Source of the DNA: Comamonadaceae bacterium
Lineage (GTDB): Bacteria > Pseudomonadota > Gammaproteobacteria > Burkholderiales > Burkholderiaceae_C
Assembly: GCA_947455145.1 (NCBI GenBank)
Contig: CANGME010000003.1
Coordinates: forward strand, 124,001 to 188,000
DNA: 64,000 nt
Direction of reading: 5' to 3'
The position numbers and the translations under genes are program-made. The notes under the pieces are model-generated. The model was not told where the DNA came from and did no database searches. It saw nothing but the letters and a program-made list of their open reading frames with translations. Every line of letters begins with the position of its first letter. The first letter of the stretch is position 1. Positions 4,177 to 10,691 of this stretch are shown here, one piece after another.

Positions 4177-4824
4177 ATGGACAAAGCATTACGCATCGTG
4201 GTCGTGGCCCCTGATTTGGTCATTGCCGACCCGAACGACCAGTACGCCCTGGCGCAGGCCGAGCGATCGCGCAGCCTGCGCATTGGCCTGCTGGAGAGCG
4301 GCTTCAACCTGATAGCGGTTCTTCCCGCAGATGCTTTTCTGCAAGATCGACTGCATCAGCTCCAGCCTGACATGGTCATCTTGGATGCCGAGAGTGAGGC
4401 GCGCGACGCGTTGGAGCGTGTCGTCACCGCCACCCGTGACGCGCGCCGCCCGATAGTGATGTTCACCAATGACAGCGACACCTCGCACGTCAAAGCCGCC
4501 GTAGCAGCAGGCGTGACGGCCTATATCGTGGCGGGCTTGTCAACCGAGCGCATCCGCCCCATTTTGGACGTGGCCATGGCGCGCTTTCAGCACGAACAAG
4601 CGCTTCGACAAGAACTGGCCGACACCAAATCAGAACTGAGCGAACTCAGCACCGAGCTGCATGACCGCAAGGTAATTGACCGAGCCAAGGGCATGCTCAT
4701 GGCGCGGCAAAGTCTGACCGAGCAAGCAGCCTATGAAAAGTTGCGTAAAACAGCCATGGACAAGAACCTCAAAGTAGCCGAAGTGGCACAACGCATGTTG
4801 GATGTGGCTGAGCTCTTGAACTGA
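4177..4824 (+). CDS. nasT: NasT-type ANTAR antitermination response regulator
   Basis: RNA-binding regulator that stops early termination in nitrate-assimilation leaders. The N-terminal receiver-like domain has LRIVVVAP at about 5-12 and a likely acceptor aspartate at 70 (DMVILDAE). It appears to carry an extra stretch of about 13 residues after strand 1 (around 18-33). A coiled linker follows, then the C-terminal ANTAR domain at about 155-210 (VIDRAKGMLMARQSLTEQAAY, EVAQRMLDVAE). No Shine-Dalgarno precedes the ATG, which fits a leaderless transcript from the sigma-54 promoter. The next operon has a matching hexaloop leader. The usual partner NasS is not seen here. Confidence 0.92.
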   Translation: MDKALRIVVVAPDLVIADPNDQYALAQAERSRSLRIGLLESGFNLIAVLPADAFLQDRLHQLQPDMVILDAESEARDALERVVTATRDARRPIVMFTNDSDTSHVKAAVAAGVTAYIVAGLSTERIRPILDVAMARFQHEQALRQELADTKSELSELSTELHDRKVIDRAKGMLMARQSLTEQAAYEKLRKTAMDKNLKVAEVAQRMLDVAELLN

Positions 4825-4838
4825 TGCGTGAACTGATG

Positions 4839-4864
4839 TTGGTGCATAGCACCAACTTGGTGCA
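4839..4864 (+). promoter_or_regulatory. NtrC-type enhancer upstream of the nrt operon
   Basis: AGCACCAACTTGGTGCA (4848-4864) matches the NtrC consensus TGCACCAAAATGGTGCA at 14 of 17 positions. An overlapping palindrome TTGGTGCATAGCACCAA (4839-4855) shares its half-site. They lie 104-129 bases upstream of the -24 element of the nrtA promoter, a normal enhancer distance. The first bases also form a hairpin just after the nasT stop, so a partial terminator role is possible. Confidence 0.7.
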
Positions 4865-4967
4865 AACCTGGTTAAAGCCAGACACTTATCTATAAATTCA
4901 GGCTGCAGCCCTTTATTTAATTGCGGTAAAAGCTACTTAATAAATAGCAACACACATTCAAGAGTTT

Positions 4968-4984
4968 TTGGCACGAGCCTTGCG
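4968..4984 (+). promoter_or_regulatory. Sigma-54 promoter of the nrtABC operon
   Basis: TTGGCACGAGCCTTGCG matches the sigma-54 consensus TGGCACG-N4-TTGC exactly. GG at 4970-4971 and GC at 4982-4983 are 10 bases apart. The predicted start is about 4995, three bases before the first ANTAR hexaloop hairpin, so the leader RNA would begin with the regulatory structure. Confidence 0.85.
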
Positions 4985-4997
4985 TAAAAGTTAACAA

Positions 4998-5066
4998 GAC
5001 CAAAGACGGTCACCGGGCCAGCCCTCCAACGGCGGAGGGAAGGGCTCCAAAAGGACAAAGGCGTCC
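4998..5066 (+). promoter_or_regulatory. NasT/ANTAR-target leader RNA with three hexaloop hairpins
   Basis: Three consecutive hairpins have six-base loops with A at position 1 and G at position 4, the signature of ANTAR RNA targets. Hairpin 1 is GACC-AAAGAC-GGTC (4998-5011). Hairpin 2 is CCCTCC-AACGGC-GGAGGG (5022-5039). Hairpin 3 is GGAC-AAAGGC-GTCC (5053-5066). The loop and 3' arm of hairpin 3 (5057-5066) are also the 5' arm of the terminator, so the two folds exclude each other. Known targets have two such loops. A competing pairing AGCCCT (5020-5025) with AGGGCT (5041-5046) could replace hairpin 2. Confidence 0.85.
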
Positions 5067-5123
5067 CCACGGATTTGCAGCGTCACCTGACGCACTGCAT
5101 CTCCCGTGTGGACGCCTTTTTTT
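5057..5123 (+). terminator. Leader terminator upstream of nrtA
   Basis: AAAGGCGTCC (5057-5066) pairs with GGACGCCTTT (5110-5119). After one mismatch the stem continues with 5068-5072 pairing to 5104-5108. An inner hairpin (TGCAG CGTC / GACG ... CTGCA) fills the loop, and a T run follows through 5123. It is a strong intrinsic terminator 30 bases before the nrtA start, as expected for attenuation relieved by NasT. Confidence 0.88.
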
Positions 5124-5154
5124 ATTGCTTTTTTTAAACATCAATGGAGATGTC

Positions 5155-6399
5155 ATGACTGAACATTTGAAAGCCACCCTCAGCCGCCGCACCGTGCTTC
5201 AAACTGCCGCTGTGGGTGCCTTCGCCATCAACCCCGCCTTGCGAGCCGCAGTTTATGCAGCAGGCTCGGACGCGCCGGAGAAAAAAGAGGTCAAGATTGG
5301 CTTCATCCCCCTGACCGACTGCGCCAGCGTGGTGATGGCCTCAGTGCTGGGCCTGGACGAAAAATACGGCATCAAAATCATTCCCACCAAAGAGGCCAGC
5401 TGGGCTGGTGTGCGCGACAAGCTGGTCAGTAGCGAGCTGGACATGGCGCACGTGCTGTACGGGCTGATCTATGGTGTGCACCTCGGTACGGCAGGCCCCA
5501 AGAAAGACATGGCCGTCCTCATGAGCATCAACAACAACGGTCAGGCCATCTCCCTGTCCAAGGCACTGGCGAACAAGGGCGCTGTTGATGGCCCCTCGCT
5601 GGCCAAGTTGATGTCCAAGGAAAAACGCGAGTACACATTTGCGGGCACCTTCCCCACAGGCACCCACGCCATGTGGATGCACTACTGGCTGGCGGCCGCT
5701 GGTATTAACCCCTTGACTGACGCCAAGTTGATTACCGTGCCACCACCGCAAATGGTGGCCAATATGCGGGTCGGCGCAATGGACGGTTTTTGTGTGGGAG
5801 AGCCCTGGAATCACCGCGCCATCATGGATGGCATCGGCATAACCGCCAATACCACCCAGGACATCTGGAAGGATCACCCTGAAAAGGTACTCGGAACCTC
5901 TGCAGACTTCGTCAAGAAGTACCCCAACACCACCCGCGCAGTCATGATGGCCGTGCTCGAAGCTAGCCGCTGGATCGACGCCAGTCTGACCAACAAGATG
6001 AAGATGGCAGAGACGGTCGCACAAAAGTCCTACATCAACACCAGTGTGGACGTCATTAACCAGCGCATTCTGGGGCGCTACGAAAACGGCTTGGGAAAGA
6101 CCTGGGACGACCCCAACCACATGAAGTTTTTTAACGATGGTGCAGTGAACTTCCCCTACCTCTCCGACGGCATGTGGTTTTTGACGCAACACAAGCGCTG
6201 GGGTCTGCTCAAAACACACCCCGACTACCTCAAAGTAGCCACCGAGATCAATCAAATCGCACTTTACAAAGAGGTGGCATCCGCCTTGAAGATCAACGTG
6301 CCCAAAGACCCCATGCGCACCAGCAAGCTGATGGACGGCGTGGTGTGGGACGGCAAAGACCCCAAGAAATACGCCGACGCTTTCAAGATCAAAGCCTGA
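5155..6399 (+). CDS. nrtA: Nitrate ABC transporter substrate-binding protein, NrtA/CmpA family
   Basis: Periplasmic nitrate (or nitrite/cyanate-like anion) receptor. A twin-arginine-type signal is visible near the start (SRRTVLQTAAVGAFAI), then KIGFIPLTDCASVVMASVLG, the usual opening of the NrtA fold, and later FCVGEPWNHRAI. About 414 residues. The ATG at 5155 is preferred because GGAGA lies 4 bases upstream; a longer in-frame TTG start would sit inside the leader terminator. It is first in an operon with the permease and ATPase, under a sigma-54 promoter and a NasT leader. Its signal peptide argues that it is the transporter subunit and not the cytoplasmic sensor NasS. Confidence 0.93.
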   Translation: MTEHLKATLSRRTVLQTAAVGAFAINPALRAAVYAAGSDAPEKKEVKIGFIPLTDCASVVMASVLGLDEKYGIKIIPTKEASWAGVRDKLVSSELDMAHVLYGLIYGVHLGTAGPKKDMAVLMSINNNGQAISLSKALANKGAVDGPSLAKLMSKEKREYTFAGTFPTGTHAMWMHYWLAAAGINPLTDAKLITVPPPQMVANMRVGAMDGFCVGEPWNHRAIMDGIGITANTTQDIWKDHPEKVLGTSADFVKKYPNTTRAVMMAVLEASRWIDASLTNKMKMAETVAQKSYINTSVDVINQRILGRYENGLGKTWDDPNHMKFFNDGAVNFPYLSDGMWFLTQHKRWGLLKTHPDYLKVATEINQIALYKEVASALKINVPKDPMRTSKLMDGVVWDGKDPKKYADAFKIKA

Positions 6400-6429: not shown

Positions 6430-7368
6430 ATGTCCAGTGCCGTATTACACATGCCGTTGCCTAAAAACACCAAGCAGACTTCCGTTCGCCCTGAGCTTGT
6501 CGAAGGGCCTCTCCCGGCTTCGACAAGCTCAGCCCAAACGGACAACACGCAAGCACCGACCTCACACAAATCTCGCTCGCCCTACGACTGGAACGCCCTG
6601 TGGTTTTCGGTGCTGCCACCCCTGCTGGGCTTGGCCCTGCTGATCGGCGTGTGGGCGATGGTGTCGGTCGTCACAGCGGGCAGCATTCCTACACCGTTGG
6701 ACACTTGGGCGCAGGCCGTCACTTTGTTTAGCGACCCGTTCTACCGCAAAGGGCCCAACGACCAAGGTGTCGGCTGGAACGTGCTGATGTCGCTAGAGCG
6801 CGTGGCCGTGGGCTTTGGGCTGGCGGCTGCGGTGGGCATTCCGGCGGGTTTTGCCATTGGTCGATTTGATTTTTTGAGCCGCATGTTCAACCCGCTCATC
6901 AGTCTGCTGCGTCCGGTCTCTCCCTTGGCCTGGTTGCCCATTGGCCTGCTGGTGTTCAAGGGAGCCAACCCAGCCGCCATCTGGACCATCTTTATCTGCT
7001 CCATTTGGCCCATGATCATCAACACCGCCGTGGGCGTGCAGCGCGTGCCCAGCGACTACATGAACGTGGCGCGCGTGCTCAACTTGTCAGAGTGGAAGAT
7101 CGTCACCAAGATCCTCTTCCCCTCGGTGCTGCCCTACATGCTGACGGGTGTGAGGCTGGCGGTGGGCACGGCATGGCTGGTGATCGTCGCCGCTGAGATG
7201 CTGACGGGCGGCGTGGGCATTGGCTTTTGGGTCTGGGACGAGTGGAACAACCTGAACGTCAAGAACATCATCATCGCCATCTTCGTGATTGGCATCGTCG
7301 GGCTGGCCCTGGAGTACGCCCTGATCAAACTCGCCACCGCATTTACTTTTGAAGAGGTGAAATCATGA
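6430..7368 (+). CDS. nrtB: Nitrate ABC transporter permease
   Basis: Inner-membrane subunit of the NrtABC importer. A cytoplasmic tail of about 50 residues is followed by roughly six membrane segments and the binding-protein-dependent permease loop (MNVARVLNLSEWKIVTKILF), which docks to the ATPase. AGGAGA lies 7 bases before the ATG. Residues about 18-37 (VRPELVEGPLPASTSSAQ) are encoded by a palindromic repeat inserted in frame, so the tail is longer than usual. The stop overlaps the next start as ATGA, giving translational coupling. Confidence 0.93.
   Translation: MSSAVLHMPLPKNTKQTSVRPELVEGPLPASTSSAQTDNTQAPTSHKSRSPYDWNALWFSVLPPLLGLALLIGVWAMVSVVTAGSIPTPLDTWAQAVTLFSDPFYRKGPNDQGVGWNVLMSLERVAVGFGLAAAVGIPAGFAIGRFDFLSRMFNPLISLLRPVSPLAWLPIGLLVFKGANPAAIWTIFICSIWPMIINTAVGVQRVPSDYMNVARVLNLSEWKIVTKILFPSVLPYMLTGVRLAVGTAWLVIVAAEMLTGGVGIGFWVWDEWNNLNVKNIIIAIFVIGIVGLALEYALIKLATAFTFEEVKS
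6482..6541. repeat. Palindromic interspersed repeat inside nrtB (copy 1)
   Basis: Arms CTGAGCTTGTCGAAG (6491-6505) and CTTCGACAAGCTCAG (6518-6532) are a perfect 15-bp inverted repeat, with imperfect extension to CCGTT/AACGG at the ends. The same element recurs at 22228-22288 and 50420-50497. Here it is read in frame as about 20 residues of the NrtB N-terminal tail. Confidence 0.85.
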
Positions 7369-8204
7369 TCGACAGCCGCAATGCCAAATACATCGAAATC
7401 CAGAACGTCGAGCAAACCTTCAAGACCAAGAAGGGCCCCTATTGCGCCCTGCGTGACGTTAATCTCACCGTGGCCAAAGGCGAGTTTGTCGCGCTGATCG
7501 GCCACTCGGGCTGCGGCAAGTCCACGCTGCTCAACCTGATTGCCGGCCTCACCACCCCGACCCAAGGCACGCTGATCTGCGCCAACCGCGAGATCACTGG
7601 GCCAGGCCCGGATCGGGGCGTCGTGTTTCAAAACCATTCCTTGCTGCCCTGGTTGACCTGTTTTGAGAACGTGTACTTGGCGGTCGAGCGCGTCTTTGGT
7701 GCACAAGCCCAAACCGTGGGCGCACCATCCGACAACAAAGCCCAATTGAGGGCACGCACCGATGCGGCGCTGGCCCTGGTAGGGCTGACCGAAGCGGCAC
7801 AAAAGCGCCCCGGCGAAATCTCAGGCGGCATGAAACAGCGCGTAGGCATTGCCCGCGCCCTGTCCATGGAGCCCAAGGTGCTCTTGATGGACGAGCCCTT
7901 TGGTGCGCTGGACGCGCTGACCCGCGCCAAGCTGCAAGACGAGCTGCTGGAGATCGTGGCCCGCACCCAAAGCACGGTGGTGATGGTGACCCACGATGTG
8001 GACGAAGCCGTGCTGCTGTCCGACAAGATCGTGATGCTGACCAACGGCCCCGCCGCCACCATTGGCGAAGTGCTTCACGTCGATCTGCCGCGCCCGCGCA
8101 ACCGCGTGGCATTGGCCGACAACCCGCAGTACCAGCTCTACCGAAAATCCGTGATTGATTTCCTCTACACCCGCCAGTCGCATGTGGAGAACCGGGCGGC
8201 ATGA
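7365..8204 (+). CDS. nrtC: Nitrate ABC transporter ATP-binding protein
   Basis: Cytoplasmic ATPase powering the NrtAB importer. Walker A GHSGCGKST is at 46-54, followed by the signature ISGGMKQRVGIARAL, Walker B VLLMDEPFGALDAL and the switch region VTHDVDEAVLLSD. At 279 residues it is the single-domain form, like NrtD/NasD, without the NrtA-like C-terminal sensor domain found in cyanobacterial NrtC. It overlaps nrtB by ATGA. A 92-bp gap separates it from the thioredoxin gene. Confidence 0.93.
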   Translation: MIDSRNAKYIEIQNVEQTFKTKKGPYCALRDVNLTVAKGEFVALIGHSGCGKSTLLNLIAGLTTPTQGTLICANREITGPGPDRGVVFQNHSLLPWLTCFENVYLAVERVFGAQAQTVGAPSDNKAQLRARTDAALALVGLTEAAQKRPGEISGGMKQRVGIARALSMEPKVLLMDEPFGALDALTRAKLQDELLEIVARTQSTVVMVTHDVDEAVLLSDKIVMLTNGPAATIGEVLHVDLPRPRNRVALADNPQYQLYRKSVIDFLYTRQSHVENRAA

Positions 8205-8296: not shown

Positions 8297-8683
8297 ATGA
8301 CACTCACCAAAAAAGCCCTTTTGATCGCTCTGTCCGCCCTGGCCTCGCTTGCGATGGCCGGCGAGATCAAGCCTTTCACCCAACCAGATTTCGACAAGCT
8401 GACCGCTGAGGGCAAGTCGGTCGTGGTGGATGTCAGCGCGCCTTGGTGTCCCACCTGCAAGGCGCAAAAGCCCATCATTGATGGGCTGATGAAGCAGCCC
8501 GCCTACAAAGACGTGACGGTCATGACCGTGGATTTCGACACCAACAAGCCGACACTGAAAAATTTTAAAGTCACCTCGCAAAGCACGCTCCTGGCCTTCA
8601 AGGGCAACAAGGAAGTTGCTCGCTCTGTCGGCGACACCTCCGCCAATGGCATTGAAGGCTTGGTCAAGAAAACGCTGAACTGA
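8297..8683 (+). CDS. Exported thioredoxin-fold protein (periplasmic reductant)
   Basis: A signal peptide (MTLTKKALLIALSALASLAMA) precedes a thioredoxin domain with the active site WCPTC at 50-54 and a cis-Pro region near SQSTLLAF. The 128 residues are compact. Such proteins receive electrons from a CcdA/DsbD-type membrane protein and reduce periplasmic disulfides. The next gene is a CcdA homologue whose start overlaps this stop (ATG within TGATG), which strongly supports that pairing. The protein target is unknown. Confidence 0.88.
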   Translation: MTLTKKALLIALSALASLAMAGEIKPFTQPDFDKLTAEGKSVVVDVSAPWCPTCKAQKPIIDGLMKQPAYKDVTVMTVDFDTNKPTLKNFKVTSQSTLLAFKGNKEVARSVGDTSANGIEGLVKKTLN

Positions 8684-9411
8684 TGGAGTTCGGTCTCGGC
8701 TCCTACGGCTTGGGTTTTTTGGCGGGGCTGCTCTCAACGCTGTCGCCTTGCGTGCTGCCCATCATCCCGATCCTCTTGAGCTCGGCGACCAACGCGCATC
8801 GGCGTGCGCCCTTGGCGTTGGCAGCAGGGCTGGCCCTCTCCTACGCGTTAATTGGCAGCACCTTGGCTTGGGCAGGGTCTAACCTGGACGTTGACGGGTC
8901 GGTCTTCCGCCTTGTCGGCGCGGGCCTTCTGGGCGCACTGGGGCTGGTGCTGATGTCCGGGGGCTTGCAACAGCGCTTCGCCTCGGCGACATCGGGCCTT
9001 GGCAATGTCGGTAACGACCTACTTGCACGCTTGAAGCTTGACGGCTTGTGGGGCCAATTTGCCATTGGCTTGGTGCTGGGTGTGGTGTGGAGCCCCTGCG
9101 TGGGCCCCACCTTGGGCGCGGCTGTCGTTTTGGCCAGCCAAGGCTCGCAACTGCCGCAAGTGGTGCTGTTGATGGGGGTTTTCGGCATCGGCGCAAGCCT
9201 GCCTATCGTCGCACTGGCCTACGTCTCTCGCAACACCATGCTCAAGCTGCGTGGCAAGCTCATGCAAGCGGGGAAGTCCGGCAAGCTGATCCTGGGGGCC
9301 ATCATGGTCACCCTGGCCGCGCTGATCCTCTCAGGGGCTGACAAACCCATTGAGTCTTGGCTTGTAGATCACTCACCTGCCTGGCTGACCCAGCTGACGA
9401 CTCGCTTCTAA
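8683..9411 (+). CDS. CcdA-family transmembrane thiol-electron transporter
   Basis: A hydrophobic protein of 242 residues with about six membrane segments. Each half has one conserved cysteine in a Ser-Pro-Cys context: STLSPCVLPIIP (Cys 23) and VWSPCVGPT (Cys 139). This is the CcdA/DsbD-beta pattern for moving thiol electrons from cytoplasmic thioredoxin across the membrane. It is translationally coupled to the exported thioredoxin. The pair lies between the nitrate ABC operon and the NarK-type gene. Confidence 0.9.
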   Translation: MEFGLGSYGLGFLAGLLSTLSPCVLPIIPILLSSATNAHRRAPLALAAGLALSYALIGSTLAWAGSNLDVDGSVFRLVGAGLLGALGLVLMSGGLQQRFASATSGLGNVGNDLLARLKLDGLWGQFAIGLVLGVVWSPCVGPTLGAAVVLASQGSQLPQVVLLMGVFGIGASLPIVALAYVSRNTMLKLRGKLMQAGKSGKLILGAIMVTLAALILSGADKPIESWLVDHSPAWLTQLTTRF

Positions 9412-9476: not shown

Positions 9477-10691
9477 ATGGCTTACTTTCGCACCTTCCTC
9501 AAGTCAGGGCATGCGCCGACGCTCTACGTCTCGTTCATGTATTTCGCCTTCTCCTGTTGCATCTGGGTGATGAACGGGGCCATGGCACCCTTCATTTCTG
9601 AGGACTACGGTCTATCACCCGCACAAAAAGGCGTGATGCTGTCCATCCCCATCTTCGCCGGGGCCTTCATGCGCTTCCCGCTCGGCATGATGGCGCAATA
9701 CATTGGCCGCAAGAACGCCACGCTGGTGGAGATGGTGATGATTGTGGTGGCCCTCTTGTTCGGCTATTTTTTCGTCAGTTCATACACCAGCCTGCTCGCC
9801 ATGGGCGTGCTGCTGGGCATTGCCGGGGCCAGCTTTGGTGTGGCGCTCAGTCTGGGTTCGGGCTCCTTCCCAGCGCGCTACAAAGGTTTGGCCATGGGGC
9901 TGGTGGGTGCGGGCAATGTGGGCACAGCGGTTTCGGTGCTGGTGGCCCCTGCGCTGGCCCAGCGTTACGGCTGGCAGGCCGTGTACGGTATCGCAGCCGC
10001 GGCCATGTTGCTGCCCATCATCGCCATGGTGGTGTTTGCCAAGGAACCCACCGATGTGGATGCCCATGCCACGTTAAAAGAGCACGCCGCCTGCCTGTAC
10101 GAAAAAGACGGCTGGGCCTTCAGCCTGATCTACGCCATCACCTTTGGCGGCTTCATCGGCTTGGCCACCTTTTTGCCCACCTACTACTACGACCAGTTTG
10201 GCGTGAGCAAAGTACAAGCTGGTCAACTGGCCATGCTGGCCGCCTTCATGGGGGCAGCGGTGCGCGTCTTTGGTGGCTGGATTTCTGACCACTGGGGCGG
10301 CGTCAACACGCTGACGGCCGTGCTGATTGCGGTCGCCATCACGCTGGTGTTGTGCGGATTGTCAGGCGGTTCACTGGCTGCATCTACCCTGCTGTTCATT
10401 CTGTGCTTTGCCGCCTTGGGCGCAGGCAACGGCGCATTGTTCCAACTGGTGCCCCTACGCTGGCCCGCAAGCACCGCCGTGGCGGGCTCCATGATCGGTG
10501 AAGCTGGTGCCCTGGGCGGTGGCCTGGTGCCCAACGCCATGGGCCTGAGCAAACAGTACACCGGCACCTACCTCTGGGGTTTCGTGCTGTTCGCCGTGCT
10601 CACCGTGAGCGTGCTCTTGATGATGCGGCAAATGCAACTGCGCTGGACAAGGACTTGGGCGGAGAAAGGGGGCCGCGCACGCAGCGCGTGA
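9477..10691 (+). CDS. NarK-type nitrate/nitrite MFS transporter (NNP family)
   Basis: Major facilitator protein of 404 residues with about 12 membrane segments. An early GAMAPFISEDYGLSPAQKGV is followed by PLGMMAQYIGRKNA and the nitrate-signature-like stretch GLVGAGNVGTAVSVLVAP in helix 5. Family members move nitrate or exchange nitrate for nitrite at the inner membrane. AAGGA precedes the ATG. It has its own sigma-54 promoter, so its expression may depend on NtrC but not on NasT. It ends 3 bases from the convergent GGDEF/EAL gene. Confidence 0.88.
   Translation: MAYFRTFLKSGHAPTLYVSFMYFAFSCCIWVMNGAMAPFISEDYGLSPAQKGVMLSIPIFAGAFMRFPLGMMAQYIGRKNATLVEMVMIVVALLFGYFFVSSYTSLLAMGVLLGIAGASFGVALSLGSGSFPARYKGLAMGLVGAGNVGTAVSVLVAPALAQRYGWQAVYGIAAAAMLLPIIAMVVFAKEPTDVDAHATLKEHAACLYEKDGWAFSLIYAITFGGFIGLATFLPTYYYDQFGVSKVQAGQLAMLAAFMGAAVRVFGGWISDHWGGVNTLTAVLIAVAITLVLCGLSGGSLAASTLLFILCFAALGAGNGALFQLVPLRWPASTAVAGSMIGEAGALGGGLVPNAMGLSKQYTGTYLWGFVLFAVLTVSVLLMMRQMQLRWTRTWAEKGGRARSA

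Follow-up and report, generated by a model that had tools for sequence, protein, structure and literature searches.

What a third hexaloop does in an RNA whose described counterparts have two is the question raised by the DNA upstream of nrtA in the window (the whole 64,000-nt stretch that was analysed). In the available portions of their descriptions, the dual-hexaloop leaders of eutP, nasF and amiE have hairpins whose hexaloops show A1 and G4; the last of these hairpins excludes a terminator, and the leaders are read by an ANTAR antiterminator (Ramesh 2012; NasR 2020; Walshe 2022). The nrtA leader (4995-5123) appears by its anatomy to be an ANTAR-type antitermination leader of this kind, presumably responding to NasT, but it contains three A1/G4 hexaloops instead of two, has an accessory 5'-terminal hairpin and bears its second hairpin on a two-tier stem. 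The departure from two loops had been pointed out in the original prediction and holds against the available text of the same three papers. Where a hairpin number per ANTAR leader is given in the accessible parts of the literature, it is two (PMC3369931, PMC8934654, PMC6759348, PMC3795266, PMC5424462, PMC8164766, PMC7496416, PMC12316311, PMC3369936), and PMC3795266 speaks of 'a series of regulatory hairpins' (data not shown). A search by titles and abstract openings, with most subscription papers outside its reach, found no paper on three-hexaloop leaders, and novelty is therefore provisional. That a single RNA may hold three hexaloops has a precedent in EutX and rli55: next to its dual motif, EutX is described as having one further hexaloop, which stands singly and carries G4 (Walshe 2022, PMC8934654); these are sequestering sRNAs, whereas the present RNA is the leader of the regulated operon. 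The nrtA leader is probably a NasT-controlled attenuator of a sigma-54-driven nitrate-transport operon, in which hairpins 2 and 3 (hp2, hp3) form the core pair, and hairpin 1 (hp1) is accessory, not obligatory, and may be a NasT dock.

The three six-base-loop hairpins with A1 and G4 that had been predicted can be read in the sequence and are reproduced by folding (Table 1). The inner hairpin of hp2, CCCTCC[AACGGC]GGAGGG (5022-5039, loop in brackets; inner stem 5022-5027/5034-5039), stands in the fold on an outer stem (5015-5019/5043-5047) that was absent from the earlier description. The terminator 5' arm, AAAGGCGTCC (5057-5066), is complementary to GGACGCCTTT (5110-5119), which is followed by the T-run; as had been proposed, this arm is contained in hp3, and sequence and folds agree that hp3 and the terminator are mutually exclusive. 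When 4995-5066 is folded alone, all three hairpins form, with hp2 upon its outer stem (-29.5 kcal/mol), and in the fold of 4995-5125 hp1 and hp2 remain and the terminator replaces hp3 (-63.8 kcal/mol). Minimum-energy folds of growing lengths, which are not a kinetic model, give hp1, then hp2 with its outer stem, then hp3, which is supplanted by the terminator between the lengths ending at 5112 and 5116. The fold z-score of 4980-5130 is -5.05. The linker between hp2 and hp3 measures 5 nt from the outer stem and 13 nt from the inner stem; the natural range between hairpins in the eut leaders of E. faecalis is given as 5-12 nt in the accessible text (Ramesh 2012). A fourth A1/G4 hexaloop hairpin, ACATC[AATGGA]GATGT (5138-5153), encloses what is probably the ribosome-binding site of nrtA, immediately ahead of the ATG, and is, by eye, absent from two leaders of the same genus (L003, L004).

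Table 1. Features of the nasT-nrtA region, in positions of the window
Feature	Position	Strand	Basis and remarks
nasT, 215-aa ANTAR protein, directly upstream of the leader	4177..4824	+	Pfam ANTAR, E 1.7e-20
Two overlapping dyads (TTGGTGCATAGCACCAA, GCACCAACTTGGTGC), NtrC-like sites	4839..4863	.	sequence
Predicted sigma-54 -24/-12 element, TGGCAC-N5-TTGC	4969..4983	+	sequence; best-site score
Predicted transcription start, about +1	4995	+	inferred from spacing to the -12 element
Hairpin 1 (hp1), GACC[AAAGAC]GGTC, loop AAAGAC	4998..5011	+	sequence, fold; accessory 5' hairpin
Hairpin 2 (hp2) with outer stem	5015..5047	+	fold; covariation of inner and outer stem
Hairpin 3 (hp3), GGAC[AAAGGC]GTCC, loop AAAGGC	5053..5066	+	sequence, fold; excludes the terminator
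Intrinsic terminator, stem 5057-5066/5110-5119 extended inwards, T-run to 5123	5057..5123	+	fold of 5057-5125, -37.7 kcal/mol
nrtA, binding protein of a nitrate-type ABC transporter	5155..6399	+	ORF; NMT1_2, E 2.4e-98; name by homology
nrtB, permease	6430..7368	+	BPD_transp_1
nrtC/D, ATPase	7365..8204	+	ABC_tran

The TGGCAC-N5-TTGC element resembles the sigma-54 -24/-12 consensus and, by its spacing, would place the transcription start near 4995, leaving about 3 nt between the predicted RNA 5' end and hp1. Among the 44 relatives with the same leader layout (see below), the best-site score for sigma-54 is 13 or 14 of 14 in all 44, compared with 34 of 20000 random windows, and the distance from the predicted 5' end to hp1 is 0-4 nt in every case (3 nt in 25). 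The dyads further upstream resemble the consensus of NtrC sites; if they are such sites, nitrogen limitation would act at initiation and nitrate at termination. The nrtA product has, by eye, a Tat-like N terminus. A thioredoxin-like gene and a gene for a CcdA-like membrane protein (the latter named by eye) occupy 8297-9411, flanked by the ABC transporter genes on one side and an MFS gene (9477-10691) on the other.

The product of nasT, the sole ANTAR-domain match in its own genome, is the presumed cognate ANTAR protein of the leader. Its receiver domain matches weakly, with Response_reg below the Pfam cut-off, and its ANTAR domain is alignable with those of EutV (6wsh, 6ww6) and NasR (4akk), with a phmmer E of 1.9e-15 against EutV 6wsh/6ww6. 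Five of the nine EutV residues reported as mutated in the available part of Walshe 2022 are identical in NasT and one is conservatively exchanged: R142, K143, E160, Y164 and M172 correspond to R164, K165, E182, Y186 and M194, K147 is replaced by R, and N173, R175 and R177 by D, N and K. A EutV methionine proposed there to exclude tetraloops (Walshe 2022) is kept in NasT. About 28 N-terminal residues of the nasT product lie outside its matches to many shorter NasT-like proteins.

NasS is the usual partner of NasT. The NasS-NasT nitrate systems of Paracoccus and Bradyrhizobium, as far as their accessible descriptions go, likewise combine a NasT-type ANTAR protein with the leader of a nitrate operon, but here no nasS was recognised adjoining nasT or elsewhere in the genome (97% complete), using one NasS-like query, an ORF of locus L021 named by eye. 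This query matches only nrtA and a second transporter-type protein, and the genome has further NMT1_2 matches; the apparent absence of NasS from the genome is a lead only. In another locus (L187), a 478-aa NrtA-like protein (4755-6191) has a long N-terminal extension before its Tat-like motif and adjoins a LuxR-type two-component pair (by eye). This second NrtA-like protein, which sits in an ABC transporter operon next to that pair, was considered as a NasS and not accepted.

In the attenuator that we favour, an RNA starting near 4995 is predicted to fold hp1, and then hp2 upon its outer stem, as they emerge. When active NasT is absent, the arms at 5057-5066 and 5110-5119 would pair and RNA polymerase would stop at the T-run. 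Active NasT would grip the hexaloops of hp2 and then of hp3, and because both are held, hp3 would keep the terminator arm and transcription would run into nrtA. We infer NasT binding and this order of events from the described ANTAR systems. Here belong, from the available text of the respective papers, the observations that induction of eutP is harmed by deletion of P1, by mutation of the P2 stem, by loop changes in either and by linkers of 3 or 14 nt (Ramesh 2012), and that NasR binds a single nasF hairpin at ~12 uM compared with 1 uM for the pair (NasR 2020). In this lineage, hp1 may give NasT an early third dock, raising the local NasT level before hp2 and hp3 exist. A EutV dimer is reported to touch one hexaloop at a time (Walshe 2022), and under such successive contact NasT could be loaded sooner where a third loop is made early. 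On whether an ANTAR dimer engages both of its loops simultaneously or one after the other, the accessible parts of Walshe 2022 and of the NasR 2020 model disagree.

A search of related genomes for the three-loop pattern, which the original prediction had proposed, revealed that it recurs within the family and beyond. DNA before nrtA was taken from 142 genomes of the family, chosen among the matches listed (matches in 197 of 299 genomes; at least 10 listed genomes left out), and 128 leaders were classified. The others comprise one at a contig end (L034), five without an hp3 in the scripted parse (L048, L071, L104, L132, L161; a separate parse does show hp3 in L071) and eight that were misparsed (L012, L022, L047, L052, L064, L072, L100, L117). 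Three A1/G4 hexaloops are present in 29 of the 128; in 17 more, two upstream A1/G4 loops precede an hp3 whose loop is G1/G4. Another 53 have a pair of upstream hairpins with A1/G4 in one of them, 28 have a single upstream hairpin, and one leader has no upstream hairpin of at least 3 bp. From 80 named loci, the 9 in which no leader could be located and the 17 with a promoter score below 13 were set aside; of the remaining 54, whose leaders have a good promoter, 35 are triples, including Acidovorax delafieldii DSM 64, A. temperans DSM 7270 and A. facilis DSM 649, all three with a further non-ANTAR hairpin before hp3. An extra non-ANTAR hairpin between hp2 and hp3 is seen in the Acidovorax leaders L283, L287, L291 and L315.

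In other families of the order, triples are located 3' of nasT (L013, L014, L015), 5' of nrtA (L167, L174) and 5' of narK-like MFS genes assigned by eye (L170, with a 3-bp hp1, L173, L178, L183); doubles include L018, L172 and L175. One triple with a 3-bp hp2 comes from outside the order (L333). The search model R1, applied across the order, is insensitive (15 candidates scored per genome; the triple in genome G037 was missed), and its 22 of 300 is no prevalence. Two further R1 matches in the window's own genome (24.1 and 16 bits) were considered as NasT targets and put down to chance, having no sigma-54 match in the sequence displayed for them and, by eye, no terminator. No Rfam family reached its gathering score in the leader, with P11 and narK RNA found below threshold only. 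P11 (RF00625, called a Pseudomonas sRNA) has the same succession of promoter, a hairpin resembling hp2 on outer pairs, hp3 and terminator; the leader scores 35.7 bits against a gathering score of 70 (E 2.5e-6, short scan), and the printed P11 consensus is without hp1. The narK RNA (RF03032) has similar promoter-like and hp3-like ends (22.9 bits, gathering score 43.2).

Conservation among leaders of the window's layout separates hp1 from the other two hairpins. Forty-four such leaders were chosen by eye from the 128, with the extra-hairpin leaders L038, L039 and L109 left out, and A1/G4 is kept in 44 of them at hp3, 43 at hp2 and 23 at hp1. These counts follow the rule even where RNAfold pairs A1 with U6 and leaves four bases, which is the case for 9 of the 23 A1/G4 loops at hp1 and 2 of the 43 at hp2; the window's own hp1 loop is open. 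Counting open loops only, hp1 retains A1/G4 in 14 of 44. Compared with 1 in 16 for random loops, both counts are high (binomial 1e-16 for 23/44, 3e-7 for 14/44, relatedness ignored); they were used instead of a figure of '23 of 26 hexaloops', which was discarded because the sorting rule favours such a result. The original prediction named loss of one hairpin in orthologous leaders without compensatory changes as evidence against it, and this came true in part, for the loop and not for the stem: the A1/G4 loop of hp1 is missing in 21 of the 44 (a four-base loop in 16 of these, 8 of them scored GNRA), but the hp1 stem stays, with 97.7% of cells paired over all 44. Leader L054 is an example with a GNRA tetraloop at hp1. 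The leaders span 26 genera, with an A1/G4 hp1 in 16, a different hp1 in 13 and both in 3, and at least 10 changes of hp1 loop state were counted on a quick NrtA tree (73 proteins; 22 of 70 inner branches drawn open; L008 on a long branch). These changes, together with the retained stem, suggest that the hp1 dock is easily gained or lost and the hairpin itself less so. The unequal loop conservation thus points to hp2 and hp3 as the usual ANTAR pair, with hp1 as an accessory 5' hairpin.

Covariation in the same 44 leaders supports the named four-helix structure, in which 86.8% of cells pair, compared with 78.5% in shuffles and at most 47.3% when the structure is slid. Cells changed on both sides number 91 (35.1 in shuffles), and the whole structure reaches a covariation score of 0.266, compared with 0.134 in shuffles and no more than 0.088 in slid versions. 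Ten pairs show both-sided change, a number that is not telling because 80 of 500 shuffles reach it, so that only the cell count and the score speak for covariation. These pairs comprise all seven of the hp2 outer stem, in which 66.4% of cells are paired and where the window's own stem is offset by one column in the alignment, and three of the four of the inner stem. The hp1 stem is nearly constant, with one-sided changes only, and since it hardly varies, covariation says little about it; the hp3 stem is identical in all 44 leaders, which is what its sharing of an arm with the terminator would lead one to expect. RNAalifold alone predicts the hp2 inner stem and hp3 and omits hp1 and the hp2 outer stem. 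A competing pairing, 5020-5025/5041-5046 (AGCCCT/AGGGCT), which had been proposed to break hp2, exists on paper; it did not survive as a built-in switch, being weaker (-18.9 kcal/mol compared with -29.5 kcal/mol for hp2 with its outer stem) and unconserved (39.4% of cells pair in the 44 relatives, 40.5% in shuffles).

Other layouts bear on a possible, though doubtful, alternative in which all three loops act as one array: NasT would start at hp1 or at hp2 before engaging hp3 (two registers), or it would pass along all of them (a graded response). Among 95 leaders with exactly two hairpins (at least 3 bp) before hp3, A1/G4 is found at both in 42, at the first only in 31, at the second only in 22 and at neither in none (Fisher 5e-5, a value that overstates the association because clades carry part of it); with open six-base loops only, the numbers are 23, 40, 32 and 0. 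That none of the 95 lacks the motif at both hairpins would suit an array, as would the recurrence of triples across several families, a second layout in which hp1 is mostly AACGGC or AAAGGC and the middle loop is variable, leader L118 with its hp2 loop lost and hp1 loop kept, and L067 and L099, which carry a single A1/G4 hairpin 2 nt before hp3. However, in the window's own layout the hp2 loop is nearly always kept and the hp1 loop is not, the association is partly clade-borne, and outside the 95 there is a leader (L085) whose single upstream hairpin has a G1 loop, GACGAA, and another (L117) that looks decayed by eye. Two more leaders outside the 95, L053 and L151, carry A1/G4 on a hairpin whose stem is just 2 bp long. 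In the second layout (L040, L056, L066, L098, L123 and others), hp3 is often GGAC[GAYGGC]GTCC, with G replacing A1 in the terminator-overlapping loop, where G1 could pair with C6.

It is rather unlikely that hp1 is a purely structural 5'-end hairpin, serving RNA stability or folding insulation, with an A1/G4 loop that does not bind NasT. Its place close to the predicted 5' end of all 44 leaders, the stem that outlasts exchange of the loop for GNRA and other four-base loops, and the possible A1-U6 closure in part of the A1/G4 loops are consistent with such a role, but the excess of A1/G4 over random loops, also when open loops alone are counted, argues against it.

Chance resemblance is scarcely credible: single A1/G4 hairpins are indeed common in the 64 kb (67 on the + strand, 90 on the - strand), but it is contradicted by dinucleotide shuffles, by conservation in other species and genera, by the nasT neighbour and by the terminator. 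Three non-overlapping A1/G4 hexaloop hairpins of at least 4 bp arose in 1 of 20000 shuffles of 4995-5123 (129 nt) and in 0 of 20000 of 4995-5066 (72 nt), and the nrtA leader is the only such cluster on the window's + strand. The - strand holds one cluster of three within 75 nt at about 45.2-45.4 kb (about 18665 of the reverse complement), probably by chance.

A further, improbable reading concerns the terminated RNA. In strict triples that have been terminated, the loops of hp1 and hp2 still form a complete ANTAR pair exposed outside the terminator, and for this reason the leader, once released, might capture NasT as a decoy, much as EutX does EutV, making one RNA both switch and NasT sink. 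If this were true, lineages with an hp1 tetraloop would have lost the sink and kept the switch. The natural variety of leaders, in which one to three upstream hairpins occur with A1/G4 loops or without them, supplies ready-made variants for the question of how an ANTAR dimer engages its loops, and it suggests that search models built on exactly two loops miss part of the architecture of ANTAR leaders.
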